From the NCBI GenBank assembly GCA_026014725.1, contig JAOZHV010000044.1:278272-342271 (forward strand): DNA of 64,000 nucleotides, in the 5' to 3' direction. Below, one piece after another: positions 16,525 through 60,678 of this stretch. Made by a program: the position numbers and the translations under genes. This DNA is from Candidatus Bathyarchaeota archaeon. GTDB taxonomy: Archaea > Thermoproteota > Bathyarchaeia > Bathyarchaeales > Bathycorpusculaceae. Positions within the stretch are counted from its first letter, which is position 1; each line of letters starts with the position of its first letter. The notes beneath the pieces were generated by a model, which did not search any database, was not told the DNA's origin, and was given only the letters and a program-made list of their open reading frames with translations.

Positions 16525-16970
16525 ACATATTTTGCATCCTAATATTAAATTTATGCACCTAAACCTATAGGGTCTGTTACCATTGATTTAACTACAAACA
16601 ATTGAATGCTGCTTGTTACTGCGTACAACCAAGACCCTTAATGTACGTGGTAAACCTGCCGCAAGCCATGTACGTAGTAAAACGAACGCTCACCAACATA
16701 TTTGGAGCATATTAGAAACTCATTGCAGAAACCTATAGAGGGGTAGGTTGGTGTTTTGGAATTTTTTAGTTGTTGGTTTTGTTGTTTTTACTGCGACCAT
16801 CCGTTACTACGACCATTGCGGTTGCTGTTGCTCTCATGGGTTGGTCGTAGTAAAACTCCCAAGTACCGCGATAGCTAACTCCTTGATAGTCGTAGTAAAA
16901 CCGCCACAGCAACCCAGCACCTAAACTTGCTTTATATAGGGGGATAGGGTCTATGGCAGAGCAACATAAA
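16525..16970 (+). repeat. Modular intergenic repeat cluster 1 (A-B-A-B-C)
   Basis: This 560-base gap holds a modular repeat seen again at 24.25, 25.8-26.25, 36.15-36.47, 41.85-41.97 (reversed) and 59.3-59.45 kb. Module A, about 52 bases (16696-16748, starting acatatttggagc and ending gaggggtaggt), has a worn copy at 16525-16573. Module B is a short motif GTCGTAGTAAAA or GTACGTAGTAAA at 16641, 16668, 16841 and 16888, with reverse complements TACTGCGACCAT and TTACTACGACCAT at 16788-16816, so stem-loops are possible. Module C (16926-16970) contains ctttatataggggg and ends gcagagcaacataaa. A short frame on the minus strand within it is not convincing. No transposase, and no target-site duplication that I could see. 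Confidence 0.7.
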
Positions 16971-24249: not shown

Positions 24250-24345
24250 TTATGTTGTAGGCTACTACGTACATTGAACCCTCTTGGTTGCACGTAGTAA
24301 CAGAGCGCCACGACAAAACACTCATCCTGTACGTAGTAAAAGCGT
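24250..24345 (+). repeat. B-type repeat cluster (TACGTAGTA motifs)
   Basis: Three copies of the B motif of the modular repeat family stand here without clear A or C modules: ctactacgtacatt at about 24261-24274 (inverted), gcacgtagtaac at about 24289-24300 and tgtacgtagtaaaagcg at about 24330-24346. The first and third are inverted copies that could pair into a stem-loop (TACTACGTAC with GTACGTAGTA). It lies just upstream of the HNH endonuclease gene, whose TATA-like ctttttataatagg is at about 24371-24384. Confidence 0.55.
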
Positions 24346-24434: not shown

Positions 24435-25019
24435 TTGCCGCCAGCAGCTGTGAAAAGTGTTAAAGACTTGATTTTTTGGCAGTATGCAAAAATTATTGCC
24501 CAATCAGCAGGGATCGGAAAGAAAGATTATGGTTTTGTCATGAACAGGTTTAAGGAGCTCAAGCAAGGGGAAATCTTTTGGAACGAAATCCGAGAATACG
24601 TTAAAGAAAGGGAGCATTCTGACCAATGCATCTTCTGCGGCGCAACAACAAACCTAACACTTGAACATTTACTGCCACAGAAATTCCACGGTCCAAACAC
24701 CGAAAAAAACCTCGTTTGGATATGCAAAAGTTGTAACTCCCAAAAAGGAGCCAGACGCCTCTACGAGCACTTCGCCATACAAGCAGGCGTTGAAGCAGCC
24801 AAATACGGCGTGCCACGTATAGCAGAAGGCAAATACCTAAAACTAGCCTTTGAAACCTTCAAAGAAAATAACCTCCTAGAAACCAGTCAAGACCAATTAG
24901 TCAGCCAGATTTGCCCAAAATGCAACATGAAAACACTCTGCATAAGACAAGGCACAGAAGGCAAACTTTCACCTTTCTGTATCGATGGCATGTTGACACT
25001 GTGCTTCATGAATTGCTAA
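24435..25019 (+). CDS. HNH endonuclease with zinc ribbon
   Basis: A 194-residue nuclease. The HNH core runs CIFCGATTNLTLEHLLPQKFHG then NLVWICKSCNSQKGARRLYEH, with two CxxC pairs (residues near 65-68 and 99-102) holding structural zinc, LEHLLP giving the catalytic His, and the N/H positions following. The first 55 residues are helical and may bind DNA. The C-terminus adds a second zinc-ribbon half (ICPKCNMKTLC). TTG start; no good Shine-Dalgarno but a TATA-like box about 50-60 nt upstream. No methylase, restriction partner or integrase is adjacent, so whether it is a homing, restriction or repair nuclease is unknown. It sits between a repeat cluster and a toxin-antitoxin-like pair, a typical accessory setting. 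Confidence 0.85.
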   Translation: MPPAAVKSVKDLIFWQYAKIIAQSAGIGKKDYGFVMNRFKELKQGEIFWNEIREYVKEREHSDQCIFCGATTNLTLEHLLPQKFHGPNTEKNLVWICKSCNSQKGARRLYEHFAIQAGVEAAKYGVPRIAEGKYLKLAFETFKENNLLETSQDQLVSQICPKCNMKTLCIRQGTEGKLSPFCIDGMLTLCFMNC

Positions 25020-25789: not shown

Positions 25790-26252
25790 GTACAATTTTT
25801 GCGTGGCTCACCAACCTATTTGGCGTCTATTAGTATCCTATTTGGATGCTATTAGAACTTCTATGCAGAAACTATAGAGGGGTAGGTCAAAACGACGCTC
25901 CACAAGGCTACAGACCAAGCATATTTGGAGCCTAATAGAGGTTCTATGTATAAACCTATAGGGGGTAGGTGAAATCTGCTCCTTCACGGCTGTGGGGCAG
26001 GCATATTTGGATTCTAATACTTAACCATTGCACTACACCCTAATGGGGTATCTTATTGGCGCAAAATTGCTCCAAAAGCATGTTAATTTACTACGACCAT
26101 TGCTACTACGACCATTACGGAAGCCATTGCCCATCTGGAATGGTCGTGGTAAAATTTTCAAAGGCAACCATAGTCACCTATTTGTTGGTCGTAGTAAACC
26201 GCCCAAATTGCTTTTTATAGGGGGATAGGGGTAGGGTGCAGAGCAGCAAAAA
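25790..26252 (+). repeat. Modular intergenic repeat cluster 2 (A-A-A-B-C)
   Basis: The gap between vapB and the nicotinate phosphoribosyltransferase gene is filled by the largest copy of the repeat family. A-modules are at 25836-25887 (preceded by a half copy at 25814-25833), 25920-25970 and, worn, 26002-26051; all carry tatttgg.nnctatta and end near tatagaggggtaggt. Inverted B motifs tactacgaccatt occur twice at about 26090-26115 and direct B motifs tggtcgtggtaaaa and tggtcgtagtaaac at about 26138 and 26185, so a stem can form. Module C (26207-26252) has ctttttatagggggataggg and gcagagcagcaaa. The remaining 300 bases to the gene hold no convincing frame. Confidence 0.75.
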
Positions 26253-26559
26253 CACATTGCGGTTGATTGTTTGGCTTTTTTTAAATGGTTTTTTGAATGC
26301 CAAAATTGTTTATAGGGCTGGTTTGGGCTTGGCTTAGAGTTGACGGGCGAAAGAAAAATCCCACTGGGTCATGCTAGTGCCCAACTGCATTGCACCATTC
26401 ATTGCCACTCAACATTTCTTGTGGATTCTAAAACGCTCAAAACATGCACTCACACCAACAAAGAAAAACAAAAAAACCAAAACCTAGAAAGCAATAAATC
26501 AACCAAACCGCCACTACTAGCGCATGAACCATTTTCTAGACTACCTAAAAGAGGAAAAC

Positions 26560-36145: not shown

Positions 36146-36470
36146 CATACAAAAGATGTTGCCTACTAGAAACTCATCGCAGAAACCTAAGTGATCAGGC
36201 ACTTTGGCTTGAAATAAGCCCATTAGCATACTGAAATAGGCGCTTTATCAGTAGATCCAAAAAATAGCCGCTTTGCTTAGTACAATCCGCCACAACCAGC
36301 CAGCAGCCCGAAACAGACGCAAAAACAACAACAAACTGCACTGCCAAGCCCAAAAGAAGATGAAGAAACAAAGCCAAGTGATTCTTCTTCTTTTAATAGA
36401 AAAACAAAACCAAACAAAAATCTTGATTCCTGTTATATAGGGGATAGGGGTCTTTAGCAGAGCAACAAAC
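36145..36470 (+). repeat. Modular intergenic repeat cluster 3 (A-C)
   Basis: The 330-base gap between two convergent genes holds a worn A module (36145-36195, cctactagaaactcatcgc and agaaacctaa) and a well-kept C module (36430-36470: tgttatataggggatagggg then gcagagcaacaaac). The 230 bases between them have no B motif and no convincing frame. Because both flanking genes point toward it, C here cannot be a promoter for either. Confidence 0.65.
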
Positions 36471-36477
36471 GTTTCTC

Positions 36478-41722: not shown

Positions 41723-41852
41723 AACGCCCATTTTCCCTTTTTTATTCTTTCACTTCGTGAATGTTATTTGATTTGTTATTGTAGGAGGCGCAACCACCTA
41801 TGAATCTGCTCAAGTCACATGATTTTAGGTGTATAAGTACTCTGTTGGCAAG

Positions 41853-41975
41853 GTTTGTTGTTCTGCGGCTACCCCTATCCCCCTATATAAAGCAAGGTTG
41901 GTTTTCAGCACGTACATGGATTATGCGACGTTACTAGTACAGCCATTCCCAATGTACGCGGTAGCCAGAGTTGCC
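41853..41975 (-). repeat. Modular intergenic repeat cluster 4 (B-C, reversed)
   Basis: In the 410-base gap after DUF996, a C module stands on the minus strand (41853-41897; reading that strand: gctttatataggggg, gataggggt, then gcagaacaacaaac) and B-like motifs lie beside it (cacgtacatgg near 41919, tgtacgcggtagcc near 41953). The pair again can form a short stem. This copy is reversed relative to the others and lies between convergent genes. The rest of the gap shows nothing that I can support. Confidence 0.65.
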
Positions 41976-58456: not shown

Positions 58457-59023
58457 TTGGCGAAGAATCCGCAATCGAGAGATGATGCTCTTGAGGCACT
58501 CGATTTCATAGTAAACGTCTTAAAAGAACATGAAAAAGACTTAGATAAACTCATAAACGAGTTGGCAACGGTTACCGAGCAACTTGGTGACACTGGTGAA
58601 TTAAGCGGTAAAGTGGAGAAAGTTGAGGAAAAAATTAACAGTCTCCAAAAAGAAGTAACAACCTTGATTGGTTACATGTCACGTATGCCCAAGGAAACCA
58701 TAGTTGCACCTGCAAGACCACAACCAGTTGGCGTAGCACCCGCACCACCGTTAACACCTAACATGGTACACGGTAATCCATCGGTAATTTTGCGTTGCAC
58801 GCAATGGGAAGATTTCCAACCATTGGCTTTGAAGGCTCAGACGGTGTCCTTTAGCTATAAGGAAGATGAGAAAGTTTTTCAAGCTGACGCGCTTAAGGGA
58901 AACCAAATCATCACTTATAGTGGCGCCCTTCCCAAATTCTCGTCCCTTTTAAAGGGTTGGCTATCTAGGCAACTGGAAGTCCCAGAACAAAGTATTCTTG
59001 AAGGCGTTTTAACAATACGCTAA
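58457..59023 (+). CDS. Hypothetical protein with coiled-coil
   Basis: A 188-residue soluble protein without a recognised family. Residues 10-80 form a coiled-coil (VLKEHEKDLDKLINELATVTEQL; KVEKVEEKINSLQKEVTTLIGYM), a Pro/Ala-rich linker spans 85-105 (VAPARPQPVGVAPAPP), and a globular alpha/beta C-terminal domain follows (RCTQWEDFQPLALKAQTVSFSYKE; ILEGVLTIR). The start is TTG with ggggg about 11 nt upstream, and a TATA-like tttatttata lies near 58404. It could be a scaffolding or cytoskeletal partner; nothing tests this here. It stands alone. Confidence 0.6.
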   Translation: MAKNPQSRDDALEALDFIVNVLKEHEKDLDKLINELATVTEQLGDTGELSGKVEKVEEKINSLQKEVTTLIGYMSRMPKETIVAPARPQPVGVAPAPPLTPNMVHGNPSVILRCTQWEDFQPLALKAQTVSFSYKEDEKVFQADALKGNQIITYSGALPKFSSLLKGWLSRQLEVPEQSILEGVLTIR

Positions 59024-59310: not shown

Positions 59311-59446
59311 ACATATATTTGTAGCATATTAGAAACTCGTTGCAGAATCCTAAGAGGGGTAGGTGCTATCGGCGGTTTCTCAAGCCAAAAATATGCCGGA
59401 AATAGGCGCTTTTTATGGGGGAGGGCTTCGTTGCAGAGCAAACAAG
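59311..59446 (+). repeat. Modular intergenic repeat cluster 5 (A-C)
   Basis: The 570-base gap after the coiled-coil gene holds A (59311-59364: acatatatttgtagc, attagaaactc, aggggtaggt) and C (59407-59446: gctttttatgggggaggg, then gcagagcaaacaag) modules 40 bases apart, without clear B motifs. This shows A and C travel together. A 152-residue frame crosses the whole region, but it lacks coding character and is not accepted. The remaining parts of the gap (59024-59310 and 59447-59595) show nothing that I can support. Confidence 0.7.
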
Positions 59447-59595
59447 ACTTTTTGCAACATTGCGTCAAACCGCCTATAAATAAGGGGGCTACTAGAAATC
59501 ACTCATCTATTTTTCAAGTGAACTTTGGTCGCAATTTGGACAAAGTATATAATCGCTTGCTTATACCCTCGTTATTTCAGGTGCAATAAACCGAC

Positions 59596-60678
59596 ATGCA
59601 AGCTCCTAAAGCAAAGATAACTTGGAAGACAGTGCTTTTTCCAATACTAGGTTTAGTCGGTTTCTTTCTTTACATTTACCTCTTCCAAGTCGACATTTTG
59701 GGCATAATAGTAACGGCGCAAAGAGCAAACCCGCTTATTTATTCGCTAGCAGTACTTTTCGGTTTACTGGAAATACTTTTCTTCACAGCTTCATGGCGCG
59801 CACTCACAAATCACCTTTGCATTAAAATGACACTGAAAAAGGCATACCTCTATGTTTGGTATGGCATCTACGTTGATATTGTTGTCCCAGCCGAATCAAT
59901 AAGCGGTGAAGCAGCCAGAGCATACTTGCTAACCAGAGACCAATGTGGCTCTTTCGGAAAAGTGTTAGCTTCACTCTTCACTCACCGCTTGCTAGGCATG
60001 GCCATGAATGTGATTATCCTAATTGCAGGCATGGTATTACTTTCAATAGAGGGCCAAGTCTCCATAGTTGTTTTTAATTTCATAATTTTCATCGGCGCAT
60101 CCATAACAGCCATAATAGCCATACTACTTATCCTATCATACAAGAAAGCATGGATGCTAAAAGCAATCAGCACAATAACAGGCTTCGCTGCAAAAATTAC
60201 CAAGGGAAGATGGAACCTCGACAAGCTCAAACACGACGCCATAGAAATCGCAGACCACTTTCACAATTCAATGATTGAATACCGACACAACCCTAAACCG
60301 CTTGCAATCTCCATGTTCTACCTAACAGTAACATGGTTGTTTAGCTTAAGCATACCTTACCTTGTTTTCCAAGCACTCAACTATCCAATTTCATGGGGCA
60401 TAATCTTAATCACCTCAGCCATAGTTTTAGCCGTCAAATCCATCCCCATCGGCATACCCTTCGAAGTCGGCATTCCAGAAGCAACCATGACCACGCTCTA
60501 CATTTCAATGGGTGTCCGCCCAGAAATAGCAGCAACCGTTACCATCCTAACAAGAGTAATAACACTATGGTTCCGCTTTTTCATCGGCTTTGCCGCGCAA
60601 CAATGGCTTGAATTAAAACCAGTCCTATCAGCCGCCAATGGAAAGACAGAAAAAACTAAAATCACACCTCAAACCTAA
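59596..60678 (+). CDS. Lysylphosphatidylglycerol-synthase-TM/flippase-like membrane protein
   Basis: A 360-residue polytopic protein of the UPF0104 / LPG_synthase_TM family with eight or nine helices. The motif YVDIVVPAESISGEAARAYLL, which follows helix 3, and GVRPEIAATVTILTRVITLWFRFFIG near the end are typical. Members flip lipid-linked sugars or synthesise modified lipids; in archaea some are near glycan genes. ATG start, with tgcaataa upstream. It overlaps nothing and is followed after 20 nt by the RimI gene. Confidence 0.85.
   Translation: MQAPKAKITWKTVLFPILGLVGFFLYIYLFQVDILGIIVTAQRANPLIYSLAVLFGLLEILFFTASWRALTNHLCIKMTLKKAYLYVWYGIYVDIVVPAESISGEAARAYLLTRDQCGSFGKVLASLFTHRLLGMAMNVIILIAGMVLLSIEGQVSIVVFNFIIFIGASITAIIAILLILSYKKAWMLKAISTITGFAAKITKGRWNLDKLKHDAIEIADHFHNSMIEYRHNPKPLAISMFYLTVTWLFSLSIPYLVFQALNYPISWGIILITSAIVLAVKSIPIGIPFEVGIPEATMTTLYISMGVRPEIAATVTILTRVITLWFRFFIGFAAQQWLELKPVLSAANGKTEKTKITPQT

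Follow-up and report, generated by a model that had tools for sequence, protein, structure and literature searches.

Module C of a Bathyarchaeota archaeon resembles part of a miniature mobile element or of a protein-binding DNA repeat more than it does a gene promoter or small RNA

Within the 64,000-nt stretch of Bathyarchaeota DNA analyzed here (the window), a short sequence with a TATA-like core, module C, recurs between genes, raising the question of what a dispersed repeat with a promoter-like core might be; an earlier note on this DNA had listed a small RNA, a mobile element remnant, and a transcript boundary. A profile search of the window recovered exactly five copies, with E values from 7e-15 to 4e-7 against a best E value of 2 in the reversed window, which confirmed the positions given in that note (Table 1). 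The core, the G-run, and the GCAGAGCAACAAA box at near-constant distance also proved to be real, and the consensus reads TTTWWATA-GGGGG-ATAGGG-n-GGCAGAGCAACAAA. Approximately 94 copies are present in the whole genome (G000; 2.56 Mb, 63 contigs). In the six large contigs analyzed in detail, which comprise 1.59 of the 2.56 Mb, the profile identified approximately 80 good copies, compared with 0 matches at E < 0.1 in the reversed sequence of the same 1.59 Mb, and the pattern TTTATATAGGGGNNAGGG, with up to two mismatches allowed, matched 34 times genome-wide versus 0 times for the reversed pattern.

Composite elements have module C as their 3' block. Across 110 clusters, the module order is B (one to three copies), an optional A or P, C, and an optional D, with very few departures, and within a cluster all modules point in one direction, the symmetric palindromes apart; region 16525 to 16970 is a single composite element, B-P-B-A-C. 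Under a strict profile, 33 C copies and 20 B clusters are found without any other module, and some of the lone C copies retain a trace of the 3' end of B. Module B, with at least 100 copies in G000, has the sequence ATATTTGGATCCTATTAGAAATTCTATGCAGAAACCTATAGGGGGTAGGTGCTATTGGCGCTTTTTCAAGCCAAAAGCATG, and module D has CGCCTATAAATAAGGGGGCTATAGAAAAA; the palindromes A and P consist of four boxes each, their arms being TTTACTACGACCAT and TTTACTACGTACAT, and differ from each other by the exchange of AC/GT for TA/TA. The mosaic is extended by module E, which is approximately 200 nt long, stands before C, and has approximately 10 diverged copies in 1.59 Mb of G000 (e.g., C52:19644-19830, E = 7e-36) and 10 in 0.38 Mb of G018, and by module F, which follows C in several cases and has five copies in the 1.59 Mb examined.

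Table 1. Repeat modules and palindromes mapped in the 64,000-nt window
Feature	Position	Strand	E value	Remarks
Module B	16531-16584	+	8e-5 (profile)	Degenerate; 5' end of composite
Palindrome P	16587-16682	.	~1e-16 (both strands)	TTTACTACGTACA-type arms; four boxes
Module B	16698-16749	+	4e-12	Second copy; 5' half with G-box CCTATAGAGGGGTAGG
Palindrome A	16787-16901	.	3e-28	TTTACTACGACCAT / ATGGTCGTAGTAAA arms; four boxes; arms covary with P
Module C, copy 1	16926-16968	+	7e-15	
Palindrome P	24253-24341	.		Alone, beside HNH endonuclease gene 24435-25019
Module B	25839-25907	+	9e-14	First of three
Module B	25921-25986	+	4e-15	Second of three
Module B	26003-26082	+	1e-10	Third of three; full length
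Palindrome A	26087-26200	.	2e-25	
Module C, copy 2	26208-26251	+	1e-10	
Module F	26275-26392	+	1e-10	Directly after C; C44:304546-304663
Module B	36157-36229	+	2.5e-7	Degenerate
Module E	36235-36434	+		~200 nt; upstream of C; source of query
Module C, copy 3	36433-36474	+	5e-10	Convergent genes
Module C, copy 5	41850-41896	-	9e-15	Reversed; convergent genes
Palindrome P	41903-41973	.	6e-9	Degenerate; upstream of reversed C
Module B	59315-59395	+	7e-20	Full length
Module C, copy 4	59407-59451	+	4e-7	Tandem plus-strand genes
Module D	59471-59498	+	7e-8	CGCCTATAAATAAGGGGGCTA...

B, C, and D each contain a TATA-like stretch and then a G-run. In the genomes tested, the G-boxes of successive B and C modules are mostly 60 to 65 bp apart, with minor classes approximately 11 and 21 bp longer, and C-to-D spacing is 52 to 67 bp in most cases. 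The shifted spacings gave only weak phase statistics (B-B, P = 0.15; B-C, P = 0.009, n = 7), and helical phasing, being suggestive only on these statistics, is not claimed. CTAT-type words (CTATTTGGCGT, CTATTAGTATC, CTATTTGGATG, and CTATTAGAACT) recur every 11 to 12 nt or so within or before B in G000 and G007 (e.g., window positions 25805 to 25887), a spacing expected of iterons read by a binder arranged along the helix. The 5' border of the elements is sharp, with the base C preceding the ATATTTG/CTATTTG start in 50 of 54 cases; no precise 3' border was seen. The alignment of elements at different loci starts at the 5' end of B, in many pairs to within approximately 2 nt, and runs almost to the end of C, and near-identical C-D blocks occur behind different upstream modules.

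Nine syntenic gene pairs carry an element: in seven only one of the species has it, and the spacer there is mostly longer to match, in one the two species have different modules, and in one both have C. With only these nine informative pairs, the sample behind the case for mobility is small, and the relatives compared (protein identity to G000 of approximately 68 to 74%) are too diverged for exact empty sites. At C22:51114, the left flank and C are common to G000 and G029, and the ~200-nt B-A part is missing from G029; the right flank includes module F, which is itself repeated, so orthology at this site rests on the left flank and the neighboring genes. No direct repeat exceeding that of shuffled pairs was found at the borders as a target-site duplication, which old insertions could have lost, and no terminal inverted repeats were seen, as the 5' end of B and the 3' end of C or D are not complementary (consensus compared by eye) and the palindromic parts are the internal A and P only. 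Where B and C stand 0.5 to 5 kb apart, as an autonomous copy might have them, they enclose ordinary genes, among which no transposase was noticed, and no transposase or related autonomous insertion sequence was recognized among the multi-copy proteins of the 1.59 Mb.

The earlier note had proposed a search of related genomes, and copies are indeed found there. Module C is present in 8 of the 91 genomes of the family, all of them species of one genus, and was not found in other genera of the family at the threshold used. Module B has a wider range: it occurs in 13 of the 32 species of the genus, often in at least 60 to at least 150 copies (counts in this comparison are lower bounds), G000, G007, G013, G018, G022, G024, G025, and G029 being rich in it, and in 25 of the 109 genera of the class, the weakest of these belonging to another family. 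Its consensus is conserved across genera, and its positions are not. The 0.4 Mb of G007 examined has B but no C, and C is absent from that whole genome. Palindrome A is private to G000, and palindrome P is common, within the genus, only to G000 and G005, where it lies at C11:67392-67444 and C27:4707-4773 and where neither B nor C is present. The HNH endonuclease gene next to the lone P of the window might be linked to the spread of P. The copy number, the almost fixed module order, the copies in relatives, and the syntenic presence and absence together bear out the description of a modular intergenic repeat family and give good support to the mobile element remnant among the possibilities first listed for C; taken as a whole, the interpretation in the earlier note is upheld in part.

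The elements are intergenic, and apparent overlaps with genes are short, low-scoring open reading frames formed by the elements themselves (gene calls came from a simple codon-score script, so that starts and small genes may be misplaced). Convergent spacers hold 28 of 108 clusters, an approximately twofold enrichment (P = 2e-4 against spacer length), and divergent spacers hold 23 of 108, a depletion (P = 0.008); in tandem spacers, 40 of 57 elements are closer to the 3' end of the upstream gene (P = 0.003), and their strand relative to the genes is random (27/57). Because the strand is random and the elements lie near gene 3' ends and are rare near gene starts, C is not a promoter for neighboring genes, and that candidate is ruled out. 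The earlier note had excluded it for copies 3 and 4 on the ground that both stand between convergent genes; this is so for copy 3, and also for the reversed copy 5, whereas copy 4 is flanked by two plus-strand genes (58457-59023 and 59596-60678). Two further candidates were dropped: a regulon, rejected as the neighbors in the window have nothing in common (glycosyltransferase, HMG-CoA reductase, nicotinate phosphoribosyltransferase, metallo-beta-lactamase fold, and DUF996), and a KOPS-like oriented motif, suggested by GGGNAGGG, as the copies are mixed on both strands along each contig. Elsewhere in G000, a 4-kb region (C22:174887-179013; L093, L094) has several B and one C interleaved with small genes that, named by eye, resemble HicA/HicB-type toxin-antitoxin genes and a PIN-like gene. 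At C22:51539, a second HicB-like copy, likewise named by eye, also adjoins an element, and a lone B at C22:125781-125859 (L091) adjoins an archaeal-histone-like gene (125929-126150).

Among described repeats, the closest kind would be the BOX elements of pneumococcus (PMC3049150) or BIMEs (PMC2817692). BOX elements of Streptococcus pneumoniae have the structure boxA-boxB(n)-boxC (PMC3049150), and the elements described here share with them ordered modules, one of which occurs in variable number (here B), high copy number, absence of coding sequence, and clustering with or nesting in other repeats (PMC3049150); presence or absence at orthologous sites (7 of 9 pairs, a small sample) is also BOX-like. 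BOX elements are, however, reported with terminal inverted repeats and target duplications (PMC3049150), neither of which was seen in the Bathyarchaeon elements, the host is an archaeon, and a whole palindromic family lies inside the element; the likeness meant here is one of organization. Given the lack of terminal inverted repeats and target duplication, the element is best said to work like BOX rather than to be BOX. REP/BIME sequences offer a similar comparison, with approximately 100 copies, an extragenic location, composite structure, and palindromic parts (PMC2817692), but units here are direct and in one orientation instead of alternating, and a REP/RAYT system is excluded because no member of the RAYT family of Y1 (IS200) transposases (PF01797) is present in G000 or in the B-rich relatives G007, G013, G018, and G022. 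Archaeal miniature inverted-repeat elements (MITEs), e.g., the SM elements of Sulfolobus, are likewise short, non-coding, dispersed, and intergenic, with no transposase inside (PMC10969869). Modules A and P alone have MITE-like inverted arms; the B-C element, in contrast, has no detected terminal inverted repeats, target duplications, or partner insertion sequence, and because the first two were not found it falls outside the usual definition of a MITE (PMC10969869). A non-exhaustive search of the open literature found no account of interspersed modular repeats from Bathyarchaeia.

The dispersal with a sharp left border, the reuse of C-D blocks, the absence at orthologous sites, and the layered ranges argue for mobile, modular, non-autonomous repeats, and we put at roughly 60% the probability that C belongs, as the 3' block, to a family of modular repeats dispersed between genes that behave as BOX/BIME-type non-autonomous mobile DNA. 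RNAalifold predicted no pairs in aligned copies of C or of B, so what is conserved is sequence, as for a double-stranded binding site. We infer that a putative trans-acting enzyme would recognize the double-stranded G-boxes, namely CTATAGGGGG-TAGG in B, TTTWWATA-GGGGG-ATAGGG in C, and TATAAATAAGGGGG in D, which recur every ~62 bp, and that it would place copies of single modules or of whole composites at new intergenic sites. A and P would be separate repeats nested at the B-C joint, and selection would purge insertions in genes and promoters, so that copies would remain after gene 3' ends. That these G-boxes constitute the recognition array of a putative archaeal mobility enzyme that leaves neither inverted repeats nor target duplications, and that assembles elements from interchangeable modules, is a tentative proposal which we ourselves regard as unlikely in this specific form.

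In the main rival reading, the arrays serve the host at gene ends as DNA sites to which a chromosomal protein binds in register, and their spread is secondary; by analogy with protein binding at BIMEs, the candidate binder would be a topoisomerase, a nucleoid protein, or a domain-boundary protein. This reading would account for the strand-independent location close to gene 3' ends and in convergent spacers, although promoter avoidance accounts for this equally well, and for the ~62-bp register of similar G-boxes; the phase evidence for the shifted spacings, given above, is weak. A B consensus kept across genera although positions are not is also in its favor, as are the two variable columns of TTTWWATA, which are A or T only in 59 of 59 aligned C copies, as minor-groove readers would accept, and the slightly more even than random spacing of the elements (coefficient of variation [CV], 0.80 versus 0.97). 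The 19 of 32 genomes of the genus without B are nonetheless hard to square with a core chromosomal function, and we give this rival only a minor share of the probability.

Less probable still, and in our view doubtful, is that C is a promoter, with a TATA box at about -27 and a start at GCAGAGC, for short noncoding RNAs independent of the neighbors. The distance from TTTWWATA to GCAGAGC would be appropriate for a start site in archaea, the distance to GCAGAGCAACAAA is fixed, and the pure A/T degeneracy of the core fits TBP, but the flanks of the box (GC before, GGGGG after) are unlike the gene upstream regions of this genome, and beyond GCAGAGCAACAAA conservation stops within a few nucleotides. 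The palindromes, whose arms covary (27 cells changed on both sides versus 9.3 in shuffles, and at most 1 such change when the arms are slid out of register), give a hint of strand-specific folding, as deviations on the B-to-C strand are of the G-U type 31 times and of the A-C type 12 times, yet this excess comes mostly from two columns. A conserved secondary structure, the other check suggested in the earlier note, did not emerge: structured RNA for C or B was rejected for want of a consensus fold, and an Rfam search gave no family match. Together with the random orientation and the flanks of the box, these results leave the small-RNA reading of C weakened. That C marks transcript ends, signaling termination or processing after a gene, is very improbable even though the elements are enriched close to gene 3' ends and in convergent spacers: their strand is random with respect to the gene upstream, C has no T-run or hairpin, most genes have no C, and many relatives have none at all.

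On the reading of C as part of modular, non-autonomous mobile repeats, the class-wide B, the genus-limited C, and the species-private A are layers readable from living genomes, in which the assembly of a composite repeat could be watched, and the mobilizing enzyme could be sought by comparing the genes of species that carry B with those of species that do not.
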